Shown piece after piece: positions 9,614 through 38,889 of a stretch of 40,778 nucleotides of DNA. Below the pieces are notes generated by a model. It did not search any database. It was not told where the DNA came from and saw only the letters and a program-made list of their open reading frames with translations. Numbering within the stretch: position 1 is the first letter of the stretch; every line of letters begins with the position of its first letter. Origin of the DNA: Oscillospiraceae bacterium (GTDB lineage Bacteria > Bacillota > Clostridia > Oscillospirales > Oscillospiraceae); the NCBI GenBank assembly GCA_902778665.1, contig CACYYN010000020.1, positions 1 through 40,778 on the forward strand, written 5' to 3'. A program made the position numbers and the translations under genes.

Positions 9614-10923
9614 TCGATGCTGTTTTCATCCAACAGGAACGGGATGATGCCCACATACTGGATACCGTTGTCATCCATGTGCGGCTTTGCGCTGCCGGAG
9701 GTGACGACGATTTTTTTGAAGAAATCCCCGCTCTTTAATAGCGGCAGGATCTCTTGGCGGCGTTTTTCTTTGTCGTTGATCTGGAAGGCGGACTGGATAT
9801 ACACCTTCTTCGTGCCTAAGTTCACCACAAAGTCGATCTCATGCTGCTTTTCGGTTTTCTTCCCGTCCTTAGTCTCGGCATATCGCACCGTGCCCACATC
9901 CACGGCATAACCGCGGCGGATCAACTCATTATAGAGGATGTTTTCCATCAGGTGTGTCTCCTCGATCTGACGAAAGCCCAGCCGCGCATTGCGCAGGCCG
10001 ACATCCGTAGCATAGTACTTGACGGGAGAATCCAGATAGGCCTTGCCTTTGACGTCGTAGCGGCGTGCCTTCTCGAAGATGAAAGCGTCCTCCAGTGCGT
10101 CCAGATACTTTTTCACGGTCTTGTCCGTTGTTCCGGCGTGGTTGACCGAGTTGAGCGTGTTGGCTAGCTTTGAGGGATTGGTCAGGGAGCCGACCGCCGA
10201 GGCTACCACGTCGATCAGACTTTCCAGATAGCCGTCCTCCACTCCGTAGCGCTCCACCACGTCAGCCACATAAACCTTTTCAAACAGGCCGGACATATAC
10301 CGCGCACGCTCGGCTTCGTCCTTTTCCAGTACCGCCAGCGGCATTCCGCCCCAGATCACATACTCCGCCCAGGCGTCGGCTTTTTCCAGCCCAGACATAG
10401 CGTAATACTCCGCAAAGCTCAGCGGAAACATTCGCAGCTCCGTGCCGCGATCCCGGAAATTGGTGGCAATGTCTTTGGACAGCATTCGCGAATTGGAGCC
10501 GGTCACATAGATATCCAGGTTGGGTCGCATCATCAGGTCGTTGAGAACGTCGTAGAAGCTGATATAGGCGAGCTCGCGATCCTCCGGCGCGATCCTGCTC
10601 TCGACCACGCCCTCACGCCGTACCTTATAGGATAGTTGGATCTCATCGATAAAGAGATAAGTTGGCGCTTCATCTGTCAGACGCTCCAGCACCCAGGCGT
10701 AAAGGCAGTTCGGGTCGCGCAGATCGGCGTACTCCCTGCGATCCAGCGCGATCTCCAGAATGTGATTTGCGGGTACGCCCTCAGCCAGCAGACGATCTTT
10801 GAACAGATGGCTGAGCAGATAGCTCTTCCCACAGCGGCGGATGCCCGTGATGATCTTGACCTTGCCGTTCCCGCGTTTGGACAGTAGGCGGTCGACATAC
10901 AGTTCGCGTTTGATTTCTGGCAT
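9610..10923 (-). CDS. AAA ATPase with DUF4143 domain
   Basis: A 437-residue ATP-binding protein of the widespread AAA_14/DUF4143 family. The N-terminal P-loop is GIRRCGKSYLL, followed by Walker B YLFIDEIQ, the sensor-like VTGSNSRML and the DIYVTGSNS stretch. The DUF4143 half ends with a nuclease-fold-like EIDFVVN...KKVYIQSA strand pair. Family members occur in many copies in gut bacteria; their role is unknown. I chose the ATG at 10923 because GGAGG sits 8 nt upstream; the open frame runs 43 codons further, but that part would lie across the promoter and palindromes. Confidence 0.88.
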   Translation of the reverse strand: MPEIKRELYVDRLLSKRGNGKVKIITGIRRCGKSYLLSHLFKDRLLAEGVPANHILEIALDRREYADLRDPNCLYAWVLERLTDEAPTYLFIDEIQLSYKVRREGVVESRIAPEDRELAYISFYDVLNDLMMRPNLDIYVTGSNSRMLSKDIATNFRDRGTELRMFPLSFAEYYAMSGLEKADAWAEYVIWGGMPLAVLEKDEAERARYMSGLFEKVYVADVVERYGVEDGYLESLIDVVASAVGSLTNPSKLANTLNSVNHAGTTDKTVKKYLDALEDAFIFEKARRYDVKGKAYLDSPVKYYATDVGLRNARLGFRQIEETHLMENILYNELIRRGYAVDVGTVRYAETKDGKKTEKQHEIDFVVNLGTKKVYIQSAFQINDKEKRRQEILPLLKSGDFFKKIVVTSGSAKPHMDDNGIQYVGIIPFLLDENSIE

Positions 10924-28152: not shown

Positions 28153-28998
28153 ATGGATACAAACAGTATAGAAAAACTCCTGATATCTGAGGAGGATGCA
28201 ATCCGCCGTCAATTGCGGGCAGATACGGAAGTGGATCGGGATCGTGCGAAAACCGTTTCCCGTTTAAATGACACTCTATCCCACGCACTTCTGCGTTACA
28301 ACGCAGCCAGCACAGGAGACAGACCTCGGCAGGCTATTGCAGACAGTCTGGCTGCTGCGGTACGGGAAACCTTTGCCTTTCTTCTGGCCGGAACTGCAGA
28401 AAAGGAGATCTCCAGGCGTCCGGTCCGAACCGGAGCCATTGTATCTCTGCTGATCAGCATTATCTGCTGTCTGGGATCCATGCTGGTGATAGATCGATCC
28501 TTTATAGCCGGTGCTGTTCTGGCTGTTCTTGCACTTGTGCTGGGCTTTACGGCGGGAAGGCTTTGGTACGGAGAACGTGAGGTACGCATACAGGCGGGCC
28601 TTGACCCGGACGCTGTATGGAAAACACTGAAAAAAACCGCTTCCACCATGGACCGAAAAATAGACGGTCTCTGTGAGCTGGAGAAAAGCTGGGAACGTGA
28701 GGCTGCGGCAGCTGCCGGAGATAGTCAGAATGCTCCGGTCAGCCAGGAGGAGCTTCTGTTACTCGGCGACCTGCTGGAGGCACTTTATTCCCAGAACGGA
28801 GAATATGCCCTGCGGCAGCTGAAAAAGATCAGGCCCTATCTCCAGCATAAAGGAATTGAATGGAAAGAATATGACAAGGAAAATGCAGAACTTTTCGAAC
28901 TGCTGCCGACAAAAAAGGAGGCTTCAACTCTGCGTCCTGCACTGGTCAGCGGAGATAAACTGCTTCTTCCCGGCAGAGCAGCAGAACATGTCGATTGA
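28153..28998 (+). CDS. Two-TM protein of unknown function, partner of the Hsp70-like protein
   Basis: 281 residues, not a family I can name. Residues 1-90 are helical, charged and probably cytoplasmic; two hydrophobic segments (about 93-113 and 117-138) form a membrane hairpin; the rest returns to the cytoplasm. The C-terminal ~80 residues (RQLKKIRPYLQHKGIEWKEY, ENAELFELLPTKK, then TLRPALVSGDKLLLPGRA) faintly recall the beta domain of GrpE, whose end also has an LRPA.V strand. If true, this would be a membrane-bound nucleotide exchange factor for the Hsp70-like protein coded 42 nt downstream; that is a hypothesis only. A modest AGGAT sits 7 nt before the ATG. No signal peptide. Confidence 0.8.
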   Translation: MDTNSIEKLLISEEDAIRRQLRADTEVDRDRAKTVSRLNDTLSHALLRYNAASTGDRPRQAIADSLAAAVRETFAFLLAGTAEKEISRRPVRTGAIVSLLISIICCLGSMLVIDRSFIAGAVLAVLALVLGFTAGRLWYGEREVRIQAGLDPDAVWKTLKKTASTMDRKIDGLCELEKSWEREAAAAAGDSQNAPVSQEELLLLGDLLEALYSQNGEYALRQLKKIRPYLQHKGIEWKEYDKENAELFELLPTKKEASTLRPALVSGDKLLLPGRAAEHVD

Positions 28999-29039
28999 AC
29001 GGTTCCATCCGGAGCAGATTTGAGAAACGGAGAATAATC

Positions 29040-31151
29040 ATGCAATATTGGGGATTTGATCTCGGAGACGGCGAGAGCGCAGTTGCACGCACTTTCGCAG
29101 AGTCGGGCGAATTTCCGGAAATCATAGAAGTTGACGGGAAGAGAGTTACAATCACCGTCTGGGCTGTTATGAAAAGCGGAGAGGTTCGCATCGGTGAATC
29201 TGCTGCCAGAAGCGCAGCAACAGCCGTACGCAGTGCTGCACGCTTCAAACGACGGTTTCTGGACACCCAGTCGGACAGCGCCGCTCTGATACGGGATTTT
29301 TCCGCAAGAGTATTTGAGAGTCTTAGAAGCAGCGGAGCTCTCACAGGCGGCGAGAAGGGTAATATAGTCTACATCGGGTGCCCTGCAGGATGGGACAAAG
29401 AAGCGAAGGAGCGATACCGGAAGATTTTTGAAACGCTGGGATTTCCATCGCCCCATGTTGTTTCCGAGTCGCGTGCGGTTATGGTGGGAGCCATTCAGTC
29501 CAATTCCGTGCAGGATTATGTGGATCTCAGGACCCGGTCTGTCCTGGTTATAGATATCGGGTCCTCCACGACGGATTTCGCATATATCAATAAAGGTAGA
29601 GAAATGGAGATCCGCACCGGGGGTGAAGTATCGCTCGGAGGCGGAATCATGGACGAGATTCTTCTTCGGACATGCGTGGAAAGATCCCCGAATGCTGAAG
29701 ATCTGAAGAGAATATTCCGCGAAAGCGAAAGCTGGATGGTAGAGTGTGAGCTCCGTGCCAGGAAGCTTAAGGAAAAGTACTATACTCTCCCTCCGGAAAA
29801 ACGCATTCCGGACGAATGCAGTGAGACCATTCTGGTTACGTATGAAGAACCGATGATTCTCGATCTCACTATGGACGAGGAGATGTCACGCCAGCTGACA
29901 GATCTTCCATGCCCGGAGCTGGAGGGAAAATCCTTCCGGGAGGTATTCTGTGCAGGGCTGAAACAGGTAAGAGAAAGCATCGGTGAAGAGCTGCCTGAGC
30001 TGCTGTTTCTGACCGGCGGTGTCTCACGCATGGACAGTATCCGTGACTGGTGCAGAGAAATCTTCCCGGAAGCCGTGGTCTATCTCGATCAGGAACCGGA
30101 ATTCAGCGTCGCAAGAGGGCTTGCCTGGTGCGGAAAAATTGATGATGAGCTCAGTCACTTCCGTACAGATGTGGATGAACTGATCGCCTCAAACAAAGTG
30201 GAGTTCATTGTAGCCCGGCATCTGCCGGATCTTTATAAAGCTGCGCTGGATAATCTGCTTGACCCGTTGCTGGAGAATACGGTGAAGCCTGTACTTCTGG
30301 ACTGGCAGAGCGGAAAAATCCGCCGGCTGAAGGATATGGAAGAGATTCTGCAGGAAAAAATACGCGTCTATCTCTATTCCGAGGATGCTATGAAATGCCT
30401 CTATCAGCCTGTATCTGACTGGCTGTTCCTGATTTCTGATGAGTTGGAAGAGTATACATCGGAAATCTGCAAACGGTATCACGTGCCGGAACGTTCTCTC
30501 GGCATATCCTCCGGATTGAGTGCCAGTGATCTCCATGTGCTGGAAAAAATTGACGCCAGAGACATCCTCTCCGGCGACTCACTGACATGGACCACTGTGT
30601 TTGTTGATTCCGTAATCTCCATTCTGATCGCAATGCTCTGCGGCGGGAGCGGCGTTGTCCTCATCAGCGAGGGGCCGATCGGAATGATGATCGGTTTTAT
30701 CCTGTCATTTCTGGTATTGATTGTCAGCCACACCATGGGGAAAAAGGCTATTGATGAGAAGCTGATCAATGCAGACCTGCCAATTCCCATCCGAAAAATG
30801 ACCCTGTCGAATATTCTGCCCAGGATTGAAATGCCGAGAGCCGGTATCGGAGATGCGCTGAAAAGCACCAGACTCGGCAAGCTCATCACAGGCAGCAAAT
30901 CTTCAGAAGAAGAAAAGAACAACAGTTTCCATCTTCTGCCGCGTATCCGCATGCCTGCGAGCAATCAGATCTCCGAGCACAGAATGCAGGCCATCCGAAA
31001 CAGGGTCATGGCGAATTATGAGCGGATGCTGGACAACCCCGAGAGCCCGGAGATGGCCGCTCTGAATGAAAATATGAGCCGGGATATCTCCAGCCAGATT
31101 GAGAAAAGGCTCAAAGAGCTTGCCGAGCAGGTTGAAATCCCGCTCACATAA
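29040..31151 (+). CDS. Membrane-anchored Hsp70-like (actin-fold) ATPase
   Basis: 703 residues. Residues 1-370 form an Hsp70-type nucleotide-binding domain: phosphate-1 GFDLGDGESAVAR (5-17), connect-1 SESRAVMVGAI (142-152), phosphate-2 VLVIDIGSSTTDFAYI (168-183), adenosine motif LLFLTGGVSRMDSI (321-334) and connect-2 SVARGLAWCG. Instead of a beta-sandwich substrate domain there is a helical region (370-515), two membrane segments (about 521-541 and 545-564) and a charged tail with a repeated LPRIxMP element (593-599 and 633-639) and a final amphipathic helix. I chose the ATG at 29040 with GGAG 8 nt upstream; an earlier TTG at 28995 would overlap the previous gene. The function is unknown; it is likely a cytoplasmic ATPase bound to the membrane. 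Confidence 0.85.
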   Translation: MQYWGFDLGDGESAVARTFAESGEFPEIIEVDGKRVTITVWAVMKSGEVRIGESAARSAATAVRSAARFKRRFLDTQSDSAALIRDFSARVFESLRSSGALTGGEKGNIVYIGCPAGWDKEAKERYRKIFETLGFPSPHVVSESRAVMVGAIQSNSVQDYVDLRTRSVLVIDIGSSTTDFAYINKGREMEIRTGGEVSLGGGIMDEILLRTCVERSPNAEDLKRIFRESESWMVECELRARKLKEKYYTLPPEKRIPDECSETILVTYEEPMILDLTMDEEMSRQLTDLPCPELEGKSFREVFCAGLKQVRESIGEELPELLFLTGGVSRMDSIRDWCREIFPEAVVYLDQEPEFSVARGLAWCGKIDDELSHFRTDVDELIASNKVEFIVARHLPDLYKAALDNLLDPLLENTVKPVLLDWQSGKIRRLKDMEEILQEKIRVYLYSEDAMKCLYQPVSDWLFLISDELEEYTSEICKRYHVPERSLGISSGLSASDLHVLEKIDARDILSGDSLTWTTVFVDSVISILIAMLCGGSGVVLISEGPIGMMIGFILSFLVLIVSHTMGKKAIDEKLINADLPIPIRKMTLSNILPRIEMPRAGIGDALKSTRLGKLITGSKSSEEEKNNSFHLLPRIRMPASNQISEHRMQAIRNRVMANYERMLDNPESPEMAALNENMSRDISSQIEKRLKELAEQVEIPLT

Positions 31152-32232: not shown

Positions 32233-33288
32233 TCACAGAGCTTCCGTGAAAGTGTAGCCATCGTCGCGGAGATAGACACGACAGCCTTTCTCCTCAGAAT
32301 CACAGGAGAGTAAGAAGGTTCTGGATGTTGCCTCGCAGGTGACGGGATAGACCGGCAGAGGGCACCCCAGTGCCCGGAGATCAGAAGTGAAGGAGCCCGT
32401 TCGTCTCCTGTAGACATACTGGGCATAATAGATTGACCTCAGATCAAGTTTTCGCTTTTCATCCTGCGGAATCGGAAAATTCTCTCCATTTTCCGTGAAA
32501 AAGACGTAGCCCCAGAATTCCGGACAGTGAATATCAATAAGGCCGGTAGGTGCCCAGACCCAGTTATCCTCCGGCCGCCATTTCCCGTTTTCATCCGTGA
32601 CTTTTTTATATGCGGATTTCTTCTCAACCGTCCACTGGACGCGTGAGAAGTTCATTCGCCAGAACTCGCCCGTTTTCGGAGCCTGCCTGCAGGGATAGCA
32701 ACGCTCCAGATCGGGCGGGTTTTCTTCTCTGCTGTAGGTTTCCATCAGGCTGCTGAACGGAATTTTGATCTCCACGGACCAGAACCGGTTATCCGCTGAC
32801 GGATTGTTGACCTCTCCGCTGACATATACTGCCGTCTGTAGGCCTTTCATATCCCAGCCCGTGACAGATCTCCCGCCATCCCGATAAGGATGCGTCAGCA
32901 TGAGATCCCACTGAGTGTTCAGAGCGTTCATCTCCAGCTCCATATAATTGTGAGTAGAGGAACTGGGATCGATAAAAACTTCAAAGTCATTATCATAGTA
33001 CATCACGCTGTCACGTTTCGTGATATTTGCCCAGATTTCATCTCCATCCAGACGCGCACCGATGTAAAGGTTCTCCTCATCCCAGCAGATCTTTGCCCGT
33101 GTGAGAAATCTCGGTGTGGGAAAATCGGGACCGGAGATGTCCACGAAGGGAGAGGTAAAGGGAACGTCTTTCCAAAAATCTTTCTCAAGATTTCCGTCCA
33201 AAACGAGTGACCCGATGGCTTTCGGGGCATAATAAACCGGAGGATTGATAGGAATACGTGGGGTCTGGATATCAGGAGCATGCAGCAT
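32233..33288 (-). CDS. CBM9-like carbohydrate-binding family protein
   Basis: 351 residues with the carbohydrate-binding family 9 (DOMON-like) fold: residues ~25-55 contain GSLVLDGNLEKDFWKDVPFT, then ICWDEENLYIGARLDGDEIW, the acidic NDFEVFIDPS and, later, WSVEIKIPFSSL with WRMNFSRVQW. No signal peptide or anchor is visible, so the protein seems to be cytoplasmic, odd for a sugar-binding module. The ATG at 33288 has GGAGG 8 nt upstream and begins 18 nt after the macro-domain stop, so both are co-transcribed. Confidence 0.85.
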   Translation of the reverse strand: MLHAPDIQTPRIPINPPVYYAPKAIGSLVLDGNLEKDFWKDVPFTSPFVDISGPDFPTPRFLTRAKICWDEENLYIGARLDGDEIWANITKRDSVMYYDNDFEVFIDPSSSTHNYMELEMNALNTQWDLMLTHPYRDGGRSVTGWDMKGLQTAVYVSGEVNNPSADNRFWSVEIKIPFSSLMETYSREENPPDLERCYPCRQAPKTGEFWRMNFSRVQWTVEKKSAYKKVTDENGKWRPEDNWVWAPTGLIDIHCPEFWGYVFFTENGENFPIPQDEKRKLDLRSIYYAQYVYRRRTGSFTSDLRALGCPLPVYPVTCEATSRTFLLSCDSEEKGCRVYLRDDGYTFTEAL

Positions 33289-33306
33289 TTTCTTCACCTC
33301 CTGCAA

Positions 33307-34383
33307 TCAGGCACCAAGCAAATTCTGGTCATAGTAGAACAGGGCTTCATTGATCTCAAACACATTGTAATTGCCTTTTTCTATGAAATATCGGATGATG
33401 ATATCGAACTTGTTGCTGTCGGACAGGGCGTAGCCCGCCTTTTTCAGCATATTCTCTGTCTCAAAAAGATCCAGCTCGAGGGCAATAGCAAATGCAATAG
33501 CTGTCGGTTTGCTGGGCTTATAATATATATCGCTCCGGATTTTGGAAAAGAGCTTTCGGTCAATGTTCGCCTTTCGATAGCATTGAGCGTCTGTCATACC
33601 TGCCTCATCAATTTTTCTCAGAAGCATCTGCTGAAAGCTCTCATCAATCTGGCGGACTCTTTTTTCCAGGTCTGCTTCCTCGGCCGGTGCAGGCTTATGA
33701 AAAATGGAGGAGAACGGTTTATATGAGGCTTTCGCTTTGGGCTCTTCCTGTGCCATGGGCATCGAAAGCGCTTCCGTACGGTCATAGGGAATGGAGAAAG
33801 AAATGGCTTCTTCATCCAGGTCCCGCCGGTTTCTCGGATATTTCTGATGAAAAGCATCCACATATCGATCATCAATGTATTCCCGAAGATCGGCGGAAAG
33901 CTTGTGGCTAAGCTCCACCATCTCCCTGCCAAAGATGACGAGATAAACCGTCATGTCATGGTCAGCCAGGAAAGCTCCGATTTCAGTGACTGCTATATGC
34001 AGCGCCTGATCCTTCGGATAGCGGTAAGCCCCGGCAGAAATCAGAGGGAAGGCAACAGACTCACAGTTTGCTTCTGCAGCGAGCGTGAGAGACCTGCAAT
34101 AGCAGGAGGCAAGGAGCTTGTCCTCTCCCCTGCTGCCGCCGTTCCAGCGTGGGCCGACAGTGTGAATCACATACTTCGCGGGAAGACGGTAAGCCGATGT
34201 GATTTTAGCATCACCGGTTTTGCAGCCACCGAGCGTACGGCACTCCTCCAGAAGCTCCGGCCCTGCAGCCCTGTGAATAGCTCCATCAACACCTCCCCCA
34301 CCCAGGAGAGATGTGTTCGCCGCATTCACAATGGCGTCCACCTGCATTTTTGTTATATCATTCCGTACAATTTGAAATGGCAT
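33307..34383 (-). CDS. Macro-domain protein with C-terminal helical domain
   Basis: 358 residues. Residues 1-165 form a macro domain of the MacroD/YmdB type, which binds or removes ADP-ribose (including O-acetyl-ADP-ribose): [33 protein letters not shown] and [17 protein letters not shown] poorly ordered region (190-240) leads to a helical C-terminal domain ([20 protein letters not shown], then [20 protein letters not shown]) resembling a lambda-repressor-like helix-turn-helix fold. GGAGG is 7 nt before the ATG. It starts 23 nt after livF with no terminator between them, so it may be part of the liv transcript. Confidence 0.88.
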
Positions 34384-34406: not shown

Positions 34407-35120
34407 TCAGCCGCCAAGATACGCTTTTCTGACCTCATCCGACTCCAGAAGTTCCTTTCCTGTACCGCTCAGCTTTATTCTGCCGTTTTCCAGTACATAG
34501 GCATAATCACAAATTGAAAGGGCTTTCTTTGCATTTTGTTCTATCAAAAGGACAGTAATCCCGGAATCCCGGATCTGCCCGATCAGTTTATAGATCTGAT
34601 TGACAATCAGCGGAGCCAGACCCATAGAGGGCTCATCCAGTAGAATGATTTTCGGCTCAGACATCAGCCCTCGCGCAACAGCCAGCATCTGCTGCTCCCC
34701 TCCGGAAAGCGTCCCGGCAAACTGGTGTTTCCGCTCTTTCAGGATCGGAAATAAAGCATACTGTTTTTCAAGATTCGCTGACAGGCGGCTTTTGTCCGCA
34801 AGTGTACCGCCGACGAGGAGATTGTCTTCTATTGTCAAGCCAGAGAAAGTCTTTCTGCCTTCCGGGACGTGGACAATTCCTTCCGCCACGATTTTATGTG
34901 CCTTTTTAGGGAGAGGTTTCCCCTCGAAAAAGATACTTCCGGACACCGGTTTTACAAGGCCGCTGATTGTTTTCAATAAAGTGGATTTTCCTGCACCGTT
35001 TGCCCCGATAATTGAACAGATCTGGCCCTTTTTGACATCAACCGATACATTTTTCAGTGCCTCAATATGCCCATAGTTTACAGAAAGGTTTTCAACCTTT
35101 AACATGGTCTTATCTTCCAT
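34407..35120 (-). CDS. livF: Branched-chain amino-acid-type ABC transporter ATPase LivF
   Basis: 237 residues, one ABC domain: Walker A GANGAGKST, signature LSGGEQQ, Walker B IILLDEPSMGLAP and the LivF-type C-terminus (LENGRIKLSGTGKELL). It pairs with LivG on the LivHM permeases. I chose the ATG at 35120, 8 nt after GGAG; a second in-frame ATG lies at 35105. Confidence 0.93.
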   Translation of the reverse strand: MEDKTMLKVENLSVNYGHIEALKNVSVDVKKGQICSIIGANGAGKSTLLKTISGLVKPVSGSIFFEGKPLPKKAHKIVAEGIVHVPEGRKTFSGLTIEDNLLVGGTLADKSRLSANLEKQYALFPILKERKHQFAGTLSGGEQQMLAVARGLMSEPKIILLDEPSMGLAPLIVNQIYKLIGQIRDSGITVLLIEQNAKKALSICDYAYVLENGRIKLSGTGKELLESDEVRKAYLGG

Positions 35121-35142
35121 ACTATATACTCCATCTTCAAGC

Positions 35143-35907
35143 CTATTCTTCTGCACCGAGATACGCTTCAATCACTGCAGGATCATTCTGGACTTCCTTC
35201 GCCGTACCGGAAGCTATGGTTTTTCCAAAATTCTGAACATGAATGGTGTCGGAGATACTCATAACCAGGTCAAGCCGATGCTCTATCAGCAGAATTGCAA
35301 AACCGAAATCGGCAGAAATCTTTCGGATCAGATCTGTGAGTTCCGAAACTTCCGTCGGAGTAAGACCTGCGGCAGGCTCATCCAGCAGAAGGACCTTAGG
35401 CTTACAGATCAATGCCCTCGCGATCTCCACCTTGCGCTGGTTGCCGTAGGAGAGGTTTTCCGGTTTCTCATCTTTATAGCCAAGCATGCCGACAACATCA
35501 AGATACTGTCTTGTAAGTTCCCTCCCGCGTCTTTCTTCACGAATACGATTCGGAGTTGGGAGGATCCCGCCAATGATAGAATATTTACTCTGGGGATCAA
35601 ATGCGCACATGACATTCTCTTCTACCGTAAGGCCTTTAAAAATACGGATATTCTGGAAGGTCCTGCCAATGCCCATATGGGTGATCTTATACTGCGGGAG
35701 CTTTGTGATATTATTCCCGTCGAGCCAGACTTCCCCCTGATCCGGGTGATAGACTCCAGTTATGGTGTTGAAGATGGTAGTCTTTCCAGCTCCGTTCGGG
35801 CCGATGATTCCATGAATTTCACCGGCATTTGCCTCCAGGGAAAAATCATCAATCGCCCTAAGGCCGCCGAAATTTTTATAGATATGTCTGATTTCCAGCA
35901 AAGCCAT
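35143..35907 (-). CDS. livG: Branched-chain amino-acid-type ABC transporter ATPase LivG
   Basis: 254 residues: Walker A GPNGAGKTT, the LivG-specific ITHMGIGRTFQNIRIF, signature LSYGNQRKVEIARAL and Walker B VLLLDEPAAGL. I chose the ATG at 35907, one base after the livM stop and 9 nt after GGAGG; an ATG at 35916 lies too close to that site. Confidence 0.93.
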   Translation of the reverse strand: MALLEIRHIYKNFGGLRAIDDFSLEANAGEIHGIIGPNGAGKTTIFNTITGVYHPDQGEVWLDGNNITKLPQYKITHMGIGRTFQNIRIFKGLTVEENVMCAFDPQSKYSIIGGILPTPNRIREERRGRELTRQYLDVVGMLGYKDEKPENLSYGNQRKVEIARALICKPKVLLLDEPAAGLTPTEVSELTDLIRKISADFGFAILLIEHRLDLVMSISDTIHVQNFGKTIASGTAKEVQNDPAVIEAYLGAEE

Positions 35908-35908
35908 A

Positions 35909-36778
35909 TTATACATCCTCCCGTCTGTTTTTCTTCGGAGAGAAAAGCCGTTTCAAATTACGAGGCGAGAGTTCCCACTCACCGAACACCCCGTTCGGTT
36001 TGAAATTGAGGATAATCAGCACAAGAACAGCATAAACAATATAACGGTATTTATTCAGTGCCTGCATATACTGCGGCAGGAACGTTAGGAAAGCCCCGCC
36101 GAAAATAGAACCTGTAAGACTGTTCACACCACCAAAAAAGACCATGATAACCCAGTCAGCAGATTTCTTCCATCCGAAATCAGTAGGTCCGACATAACCG
36201 ACATAGAATGCATACAGACATCCGGCAAAGGAAGTTAAAGCACAGCTCATCAGGAAAGCAGTCATTTTTACTCTTGAGGCATTGATTCCCATTGCCTGTG
36301 CTGCCAGCTCATCACTCTTCACAGCAATGCACTGTCGTCCAAACTTGCTCGTCTTAAAAAAAGCTGTAATCGCTATCACAATGACAGCAGAAATCAGAGT
36401 AAACCAGACATTCACTCTTCTCGGAACACCGATAAGACCGAATGCACCACCCGTGAACTGACTCAGGAGCAGAATTAACTGGGCGATAGATTCTCCAAAG
36501 CCTAGTGTAACCAACGAGATATAATCACGCCTGAGACGCACAATCGGGAAGCCGATTACGTACCCAATTCCAACAGAAAAAATGATCGCCGCCGCAAAAG
36601 CCGCGTACATATTCAGCCCTGCCTTCAAAACCAGCAAACCGGAGACATACGCACCTATTGCCATAAAGGCAGCGGATCCCAGGGAAAACATCCCGGTAAG
36701 ACCGGTGAGAATGTAGATACCGCAGACGGAAACCAGCGTAATACAGACCTGCGTCAATACATATAAAAACAGTTTCAT
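35909..36778 (-). CDS. livM: Branched-chain amino-acid-type ABC transporter permease LivM
   Basis: 289 residues, about eight to nine membrane helices. The LivM loop MFSLGSAAFMAIGAYVSGLL is near the start and the ATPase coupling stretch AVKSDELAAQAMGINASRVK is in the middle. AGGAGG precedes the ATG; livH ends 12 nt upstream. Confidence 0.92.
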   Translation of the reverse strand: MKLFLYVLTQVCITLVSVCGIYILTGLTGMFSLGSAAFMAIGAYVSGLLVLKAGLNMYAAFAAAIIFSVGIGYVIGFPIVRLRRDYISLVTLGFGESIAQLILLLSQFTGGAFGLIGVPRRVNVWFTLISAVIVIAITAFFKTSKFGRQCIAVKSDELAAQAMGINASRVKMTAFLMSCALTSFAGCLYAFYVGYVGPTDFGWKKSADWVIMVFFGGVNSLTGSIFGGAFLTFLPQYMQALNKYRYIVYAVLVLIILNFKPNGVFGEWELSPRNLKRLFSPKKNRREDV

Positions 36779-36790
36779 ACCGTCTCCTCC

Positions 36791-37663
36791 TCACGCCTTT
36801 TCCTGCACATTGCTGCCGGCAATTCCCTGCGGTCTTACAAGGAGGAAAACAAGCATCAGTGCAAAAGAGGCAATGGTTGCCCAGCCCGAGCCCCAGAGGC
36901 TGAGGAACAAGGCCTCCATAATGCCAAGCAGCATAGCACCGATCACCGCTCCGGTCAGACTGCCGAGACCGCCGATCACGGAGGCGATAAAACCTTTTAC
37001 GACCAGAGAACCCAAAGTTGAAGTCAGGGTAAACTTAATACCAAGGAAGCATCCCGCCAGGCCGCCGAAGAAACCAGAAATGGCAAAAACCACCTGAATG
37101 ATCAGAGTGGAATTGATGCCCATTAACTTTGCAGTATCCCTATCAAAAGAAACCGCCCGGATCTGCCGGCCGATACTTGTCTTCTGAATAATAAAGGCAA
37201 GAATAATGAGGGCGACGGCAGAGATTGCCAGAATGATTATATTTTCTTTGGAAACAACTGCGTCAAAAATCTTGACGGTTGCAACATCAAAAAAGTTGGG
37301 GTAAACATAGAAGTTAGTGCCTGTTTTCAGCGTAACAAGGCCTTCATAGAGCGTCCCCAGGGTGATCGAGGAGACGAAAAAATAAGTAGGCGCAGAATGA
37401 TTTAAAAGAATTCTTCGAAAGCCGATAAACTCACCGATGAGCCCGATGATTGCTCCGGAAAGTGCTGAGCACAGCAACGTAGGGGCAAGCCCCCAGCCTT
37501 TGGAAGCCACAAGAAAATATGCTATAAAAGCAGACGCCGTCATCGTGGCACCGTGCGAGAAATTGGAGAACTTCAGAATATTAAAGACCAGTGCAAAGCC
37601 GATGGCAATCAGGCTGTACACAGCACCTGTCGAAATCCCGTTCAATAGTATCTGGAGTGACAA
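36791..37663 (-). CDS. livH: Branched-chain amino-acid-type ABC transporter permease LivH
   Basis: 290 residues, about eight membrane helices: LNGISTGAVYSLIAIGFALV, FSNFSHGATMTASAFIAYF and RAVSFDRDTAKLMGINSTLI. It starts with TTG (37661-37663) behind AGGAGG; no in-frame ATG fits. A hairpin separates it from the binding-protein gene. Confidence 0.92.
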   Translation of the reverse strand: MSLQILLNGISTGAVYSLIAIGFALVFNILKFSNFSHGATMTASAFIAYFLVASKGWGLAPTLLCSALSGAIIGLIGEFIGFRRILLNHSAPTYFFVSSITLGTLYEGLVTLKTGTNFYVYPNFFDVATVKIFDAVVSKENIIILAISAVALIILAFIIQKTSIGRQIRAVSFDRDTAKLMGINSTLIIQVVFAISGFFGGLAGCFLGIKFTLTSTLGSLVVKGFIASVIGGLGSLTGAVIGAMLLGIMEALFLSLWGSGWATIASFALMLVFLLVRPQGIAGSNVQEKA

Positions 37664-37696
37664 AACAGAATTCCTCCTTTAGAAAACGTGATGAAA

Positions 37697-37730
37697 ATCG
37701 GATCGCATCACTAAAAGGATACGATCCGAT
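37697..37730 (-). other. Hairpin between the binding-protein gene and livH
   Basis: A perfect 9-bp stem (ATCGGATCG with CGATCCGAT) and a 16-nt loop lie in the 89-nt gap after the binding-protein gene, followed on the minus strand by a weak T-rich stretch. It could let part of the transcripts stop after the binding protein, raising its level over the membrane parts. Confidence 0.5.
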
Positions 37731-37752
37731 CATATTATACCTTCAGTTCAGA

Positions 37753-38889
37753 TTATTCAGCAGGATATTTCTGGAGCATGACCGGTGTAGTATTATCATA
37801 TTTGTACATAAACATCGGTGTGCCGTCAACAGGCATATGAGTCTCCGGGTCAATGGAGATAACACCCGTCATACCCTCATAGGAGTAGGACGAAAGTTTT
37901 TCAGTAATTGCGGCTGCATCTGTTCCGACTTCTTCCATAATCTTTGCTGCCATCTGCATGGAGTCATAGCCCAGGAAGTATTTATTCGGTGCGCCGACTT
38001 CTGCGCAGCGCTCTTCGATCATCTTCTCGGTAGCTTCTTCATAAACATCAATATTGTTGATATAATAGACATTGGAGCAATCTGCACCGACCTGGGTGTT
38101 GAAAGCAGGTGCACCGTCAAGACCGGTAATAATGGCCCCGGTGTATCCAAGCTGATCACAGGTCTTTTTAATCAGCACAAGAGGTGCAGTGTAGTTGGGG
38201 CAGTAGATTGCATCCACGCCTGCGTCAATCAAGGGTTTAATGAGTGTGGAGATATCAGTCTCTGTGCTGTTATAACCGATGATATTTGCCTCTTCCAGTG
38301 CTCCGCCCTTTTCCCGAACGGTATCGATGAACGGGTTCAGAAGAGCAACAGAGTAGGAATTGTCCTTCGTATAGAAGACTCCGAAGTTTTTAAAGCCATT
38401 CTGAAGTGCGAACTCCGCCATAATTGTGCCCTGAACAGTGGTGGAAGGCTGGGCACAGAAGAGAGAGCTGTAGATGTTGCCGTTTTCATCCTTATAGCAG
38501 GCAGGATCTACCGCCAGGGTAATCATCGGGACATCAAAGGAAGCTGTCATCGCCTTAAGACCGTTGACAATGTTGGCAATAGGCGGTGCAATGATGAAGT
38601 CAACTTCATCCACTGTGACTGCTTTGATATAAGCAGCTATTGCCGTGTCAACGTTGGCAGCTGTGTCATATTCAATAAACTGAACTTCTTTACCGCCGAT
38701 TCCACCAGCAGCATTGATATCTGCAATAGCATCCTCAACACCTTTCTGGACCGATTTGCCGAGAGTTGCCGTGCCGCCTGTGGTATCCTGCAGGATGCCG
38801 ATAACAATCGGATCATCTGCAAACGCTGTTACGCCGAAGCATGCGAAAAGGCACACTGCTGCAAGGAACATTGCCAGATACTTTTTCAT
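37753..38889 (-). CDS. livK: Branched-chain amino-acid-type ABC transporter substrate-binding protein
   Basis: 378 residues, Peripla_BP_6 fold: IVIGILQDTTGGTATLGKSV at the mature start, AIADINAAGGIGGKEVQFIEYD, then IIAPPIANIVNGLKAM. The signal peptide ends AFA-DD at about residue 24; a cysteine in LFAC does not make a proper lipobox. The ligand may be leucine/isoleucine/valine, other amino acids, urea or amides; sequence alone does not tell. First gene of the operon, with AAAGGAG before the ATG. Confidence 0.88.
   Translation of the reverse strand: MKKYLAMFLAAVCLFACFGVTAFADDPIVIGILQDTTGGTATLGKSVQKGVEDAIADINAAGGIGGKEVQFIEYDTAANVDTAIAAYIKAVTVDEVDFIIAPPIANIVNGLKAMTASFDVPMITLAVDPACYKDENGNIYSSLFCAQPSTTVQGTIMAEFALQNGFKNFGVFYTKDNSYSVALLNPFIDTVREKGGALEEANIIGYNSTETDISTLIKPLIDAGVDAIYCPNYTAPLVLIKKTCDQLGYTGAIITGLDGAPAFNTQVGADCSNVYYINNIDVYEEATEKMIEERCAEVGAPNKYFLGYDSMQMAAKIMEEVGTDAAAITEKLSSYSYEGMTGVISIDPETHMPVDGTPMFMYKYDNTTPVMLQKYPAE

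Follow-up and report, generated by a model that had tools for sequence, protein, structure and literature searches.

We analysed a contig (C20) from the draft genome of an Oscillospiraceae bacterium (2.73 Mb, 79 contigs), and "the window" below means this whole stretch of 40,778 nucleotides. Two neighbouring genes, here called A and B, were confirmed on the + strand, A at 28153-28998 and B at 29040-31151, with 41 bases between them. An earlier note, made from the letters alone, had read them as a membrane-bound ATPase and its own exchange factor, a reading that is partly supported by the results below. At the locus, the closest named relatives are metagenome assemblies of Oscillospiraceae from the guts of ruminants, with 75-77% identity in B. 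The features of both genes are the following.

28153..28998, + strand: gene A, 281 residues, with N-terminal helices, hydrophobic hairpin, long helix and predicted GrpE-like tail
28153..28392, + strand: A residues 1-80, predicted N-terminal helices (AlphaFold model)
28417..28572, + strand: A residues 89-140, hydrophobic (membrane) hairpin (hydropathy; model helices 93-112 and 117-138)
28606..28722, + strand: A residues 152-190, stalk-like long helix (AlphaFold model)
28732..28995, + strand: A residues 194-281, predicted GrpE-like tail of two helices and a small beta domain (model, structural match, conservation)
29029..29033, + strand: GGAGA, likely ribosome-binding site of B (read from the sequence)
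29040..31151, + strand: gene B, 703 residues, with Hsp70-type nucleotide-binding domain, helical domain, hydrophobic hairpin and C-terminal helices
29040..30149, + strand: B residues 1-370, Hsp70-type nucleotide-binding domain (profile, structure, residue conservation)
30150..30575, + strand: B residues 371-512, predicted helical domain at the place of the Hsp70 linker and beta-sandwich (model, conservation, DnaK alignment)
30579..30743, + strand: B residues 514-568, hydrophobic (membrane) hairpin with a CGGSG motif (hydropathy, conservation)
30822..30974, + strand: B residues ~595-645, insert limited to the long subtype (subtype comparison)
30975..31148, + strand: B residues 646-703, C-terminal helices (conservation), ending in a conserved AE-x-VE(I/L)PL tail (31122-31145)

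The list of open reading frames had placed the start of B at TTG 28995. This was set aside, since GGAGA precedes ATG 29040, which is most likely the translation start.

The nucleotide-binding domain of B is of the Hsp70 type, by sequence and by predicted fold. Pfam HSP70 matches it with E 5.2e-7 and 28.7 bits, for a cut-off of 20.6. Searched against PDB sequences, the B family profile gives 93 matches at E <= 1e-3, and 59 of the 60 listed carry Hsp70-type names, the remaining one (5tky) being titled Ssb Hsp70. The predicted model also resembles Hsp70 nucleotide-binding domains (Foldseek, VIA). Residues D7, G9, K70, E143, D172, G174, T177, D179, G326 and G327 are invariant in all 27 sequences (the window and 26 relatives). 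When B is aligned with the DnaK of the same genome, its D, K, E, D, T and D, which we take to be the catalytic residues of Hsp70, fall in the DnaK columns. The earlier claim of an Hsp70-type ATPase domain with its nucleotide motifs is thus borne out by profile, structure match and residue conservation, and B is presumably an active ATPase.

The NCBIfam DnaK models score far under their cut-offs on B (best 26.7 bits). B also matches MreB (PF06723, 16.5 of 27 bits), FtsA (PF14450, 15.8 of 31.8 bits) and two families of PHROGs, one unnamed (E 1.8e-9) and one of phage partition proteins (E 2.1e-7). A relative on a Calothrix plasmid, described below, has ParM as its best Pfam match, below cut-off, and no HSP70 match at E <= 1. 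These matches would suit a membrane-anchored actin-like filament, with B forming polymers in the manner of MreB or ParM and A acting as membrane adaptor or nucleator. We consider this very unlikely, as HSP70 exceeds its cut-off while MreB and FtsA stay under theirs, and B residues 5-77, a stretch that takes in the catalytic lysine position, align with DnaK.

The hydrophobic interdomain linker, VLVDVTPLSLG in the genome's own DnaK, is absent from B in the alignment of the two proteins. No beta-sandwich substrate-binding domain was detected in B, and among the 60 PDB matches listed the best stretches end by profile position 364 of 636. In the whole-protein model, residues 371-703 form helices and a hydrophobic hairpin with two strands of 3 residues, several stretches having a predicted local distance difference test score below 50. 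The hairpin lies at about 514-568, and two or more hydrophobic windows are present in 27/27 B proteins. The proposal that a helical part and two transmembrane segments take the place of the substrate-binding domain is supported by predicted helices, hydropathy and the DnaK alignment. These results favour B as an ATPase of Hsp70 fold that carries a hydrophobic hairpin and has no detected substrate-binding domain. By length, B proteins fall into a long (688-708 residues) and a short (635-638 residues) subtype. Both are present within one genus (the window and loci L032 and L035), and the insert of the long one, at about 595-645, is variable.

Gene A was described earlier as a two-transmembrane protein directly upstream, with LRPALV near KLLLPG, and this description is correct (residues 260-265 and 269-274). 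Its hydrophobic hairpin lies at about 89-140 by hydropathy. Across 20 A proteins, 16 have two or more hydrophobic windows, three have one long merged stretch and one (L046) has a single segment. The model of A runs from a long helix through a helix pair to a small beta domain, an order that agrees with the GrpE architecture as given in excerpts of a review (PMC4753570). Seven of the 50 structural entries listed align at residues 192-281; all seven are GrpE or GrpEL1, and six cover nearly the whole tail, with moderate scores. The tail is also the more conserved part of A, with 12/89 columns conserved at >=95% in residues 193-281 vs 4/192 elsewhere (p 0.0003). A GrpE-like fold of the A tail is thus predicted with moderate strength.

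Sequence comparisons give a different picture, and several of them weigh against a GrpE relationship. No Pfam family, PF01025 (GrpE) included, matches A at E <= 10, and GrpE is not among the 25 families shown in a search with 20 A members. An hhalign comparison of A with 17 canonical GrpEs gave P 0.2 and no clear result, local or global, with several segments. In global mode, 79/100 shuffles attain the observed score. The A-profile search of the PDB returned no GrpE, and NCBIfam nothing useful for A. With shorter segments of A the local scores are harder to reach by chance: 11/150 shuffles for residues 151-281, 2/150 for 194-281 and 1/150 for 236-281 alone.

The last two results place the tail in conflicting registers. 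GrpE ends in the motif LRPAxV, which LRPALV of A resembles, and the 236-281 segment joins TLRPALV to this end motif. The 194-281 segment instead aligns best at residues 222-242, against GrpE-fragment 90-110. The structural alignment agrees with this second register: judged by the ends of its ranges, it lands the A C-terminus on the GrpE C-terminus, and it would place LRPALV on the preceding hairpin. The LRPALV argument, which sets the motif at the very end of GrpE, is weaker for this reason. As to the GrpE-like tail claimed before, the predicted fold gives moderate support and the sequence comparisons are weak or negative. Even if the LRPALV reason is doubtful, the conclusion may be right.

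The same weak comparisons, together with the moderate structural scores, would fit A as a membrane scaffold with no kinship to GrpE, whose convergent small beta tail docks B without exchange activity. This seems to us quite unlikely, given that the entries listed on the tail are exclusively of GrpE type and that the gene next door encodes an Hsp70.

The adjacency of the two genes is conserved, and A is a dedicated upstream partner of B. Gene A lies directly upstream of B on the same strand in 40/40 loci with readable B and preceding DNA, as found with an A profile built from 20 sequences, mostly from those same loci. The count leaves aside L009 (B cut at the contig end, with A upstream), L013 (contig beginning 62 bases before the match), L023 (a fragment) and repeat fetches. 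The gap ranges from -4 to 159 bases and is 2 or 3 bases in 19/40, with start codons as chosen by script. An A-profile search of 18 genomes found A in 16/16 B-positive and 0/2 B-negative ones. Further support for the adjacency comes from 10 of the 12 loci of a genus survey, the remaining two having entered the count before; five of the ten (L087, L088, L092, L094 and L095) look like genomes that are also in it. The presence of A in B-positive genomes of the genus was judged where the locus had been fetched. The divergences of A and B are correlated (r 0.89, 39 loci), a value reached by 0/2000 permutations (best 0.30), with shared ancestry contributing to it. Locus L031 (partial A) was excluded here, as well as from the tree and from column conservation. 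The two proteins are presumably in physical contact.

In a survey of 22 related loci, A and B were the only gene clusters common to the Oscillospiraceae and Erysipelotrichaceae loci, among clusters present in at least 3 loci. This survey was coarse: the window was not part of it, open reading frames were picked purely by length, so that A was missed in 6 loci and B in 2. The divergent ribosomal/secY operon reported earlier beside the pair is present in the window as a divergent S10-type ribosomal operon (by eye), and it is seen in 3/22 related loci (L003, L009, L011). At this frequency, a functional link to the ribosomal operon is not supported.

B has a patchy distribution. It is carried by 29/101 genomes of the genus, 13/250 of the family and 1/398 of the phylum (the own genome), and by 8/145 genomes of the family of Erysipelotrichaceae bacterium NK3D112 (G646); these sets overlap and each includes its own centre genome. 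The tree does not cleanly separate Oscillospiraceae and Erysipelotrichaceae, with three label changes each. This mixing suggests transfer or repeated loss of the pair, though the starred branches are compatible with a single origin. In a search for remote relatives with the C-terminal half of B, 2/391 class genomes gave a match, the own genome and one with E 4.9e-4 in an FtsX-like permease (by eye), which was rejected as false. The phylum of G646 gave 1/344, G646 itself.

Among 72,556 plasmid records, B has a single match, on a Calothrix plasmid typed as conjugative (30% identity over residues 5-591, E 5e-65). When 17 neighbouring proteins are scored with the A profile, the product of the gene immediately upstream ranks first, at 23.1 bits and E 8.2e-7 (400 shuffled copies reach at most 9.0 bits), and hhalign aligns it with A over 231 columns (E 9e-4). 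Plain BLAST with window A misses this partner (E 0.25), and the profile alone finds it. The plasmid search gave no match with window A, and with the Calothrix partner it returned the partner itself. Since the pair recurs on this plasmid, its range seems to extend beyond Bacillota. On Calothrix brevissima NIES-22 plasmid2 (L082:8997-9803) the partner gene stops early, and a tail-like stretch lies at ~9750-9890 in another frame, by a broken gene, a sequence error or a frameshift.

The main rival to a nucleotide switch is membrane-effector immunity, against phages or in conflicts, where the Hsp70-type ATPase would sense or gate and the hairpins would disturb the membrane once activated. Its case is built on the patchy carriage, the two subtypes within one genus, the copy on a conjugative plasmid and the lack of fixed neighbours in the 22-locus survey. 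Conflict systems with HSP70, GrpE and, in a subset, HSP70 without a peptide-binding domain are also described in excerpts of Kaur et al. 2020 (PMC7159879). On the other side, neither A nor B matches a PADLOC family at E <= 1, and of 10 flanking proteins scanned, 3 have partial matches, all of them weak (best E 0.0037). No match was found in 50,697 phage records. In two scans of viral contigs, none of the 88 pattern matches was confirmed, and the Calothrix protein gave no pattern match. Conservation of the ATPase is even. We therefore hold immunity to be unlikely.

The pair is an addition to the ordinary DnaK system, because the genome retains the usual grpE, dnaK and J-domain genes. The grpE gene (C10:48622) adjoins a DnaK gene, and of the J-domain genes one lies downstream of grpE on C10 and a second elsewhere. 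A perfect CIRCE (controlling inverted repeat of chaperone expression) site precedes the grpE match by ~1.3 kb, while the window has none at up to 3 mismatches; A and B are thus probably outside the usual heat-shock control. A promoter scan was near chance, with 6 found vs 3.9 expected.

On balance, we favour the pair as a membrane-tethered Hsp70-type nucleotide switch with its own membrane-tethered GrpE-like exchange factor, which we consider fairly probable. Both proteins would be anchored by their hairpins. Because of these hairpins, and because the ATPase has to work in the cytoplasm, the soluble parts are most likely cytoplasmic; the charges flanking the hairpins did not settle the topology. 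B would bind and hydrolyse ATP, and its lobe movement would be relayed to the helical domain, the membrane hairpin and the conserved C-terminal tail rather than to a peptide-binding domain. The J-domain docking surface of Hsp70 depends on the linker, which B lacks, so control of B by a J-protein seems unlikely. In DnaK, the beta domain of GrpE rotates subdomain IIB and opens the nucleotide cleft, according to excerpts of a review (PMC4753570). By analogy, the beta domain of A may wedge into subdomain IIB of B, leading to ADP release. Our leading guess for the output is control of membrane protein assembly or quality, not bulk folding.

Compared with DnaK-DnaJ-GrpE, the pair shares the Hsp70 nucleotide-binding domain with its nucleotide-site residues, a partner of GrpE-like predicted fold and gene adjacency. 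It differs in having no linker, no detected substrate-binding domain and no J-domain gene, and in the hydrophobic hairpins of both proteins. Yeast Snl1 regulates Hsp70s of the ordinary kind. It is likewise a membrane-anchored Hsp70 exchange factor, but eukaryotic and with a BAG domain, as excerpts of a 2014 paper describe it (PMC3962485). From excerpts on E. coli HscC (PMC8215388), this specialised Hsp70 also has membrane-anchored partners, the tail-anchored DjlB/DjlC, but it is a full Hsp70, and DjlB/DjlC are J-domain proteins rather than exchange factors. A literature search, with preprints and most subscription papers outside its scope, found no such gene pair. The nearest published arrangement, judging from excerpts (PMC7159879), is the theme of HSP70, GrpE and HSP70 without a peptide domain in GAP1-N2 GTPase conflict systems, which occur in firmicutes too but are centred on GTPase, GAP1 and FNIII proteins. 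Of the clusters that occur in 3 or more of the 22 loci, none besides A and B is common to the loci of both families, with no search aimed at GTPase or GAP1 families.

We further put forward, tentatively, a new class of Hsp70 machine, an ATPase in which a membrane module replaces the client domain and whose driver is a dedicated exchange factor, the first in bacteria to be anchored in the membrane. It would be a minimal two-gene unit, kept by two families of Bacillota and by a plasmid of a cyanobacterium, and would work as an ATP-driven switch at the cytoplasmic face of the membrane. Excerpts of a 2015 review state that eubacterial genomes encode one Hsp70 exchange factor only, GrpE (PMC4753570), and those of the 2014 paper give Snl1 as the only known membrane-associated one (PMC3962485). 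Should A prove to be an exchange factor, there would be a second one in these genomes, located in the membrane, and both statements, as excerpted, would need revision. The pair would also mean an Hsp70 cycle operating without a substrate-binding domain, and offer a small two-protein system to study an Hsp70 motor acting on a membrane rather than on a peptide.

Some neighbours of the pair deserve mention. A macro domain protein (window 33307-34383, Pfam E 3.3e-47) has a C-terminal region of ~220 residues in which Pfam gives no match at E <= 0.001. Between its gene and a 2-hydroxyacid dehydrogenase gene lies 32233-33306, with a match like a carbohydrate family 9 binding domain (E 7.3e-7). Finally, an operon for an ABC transporter of the branched-chain-amino-acid type (by eye) lies near the pair at 34407-38889. 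Such an operon is also found just downstream in L012, L014, L021 and L022 (Erysipelotrichaceae), a recurrence that may be coincidence.
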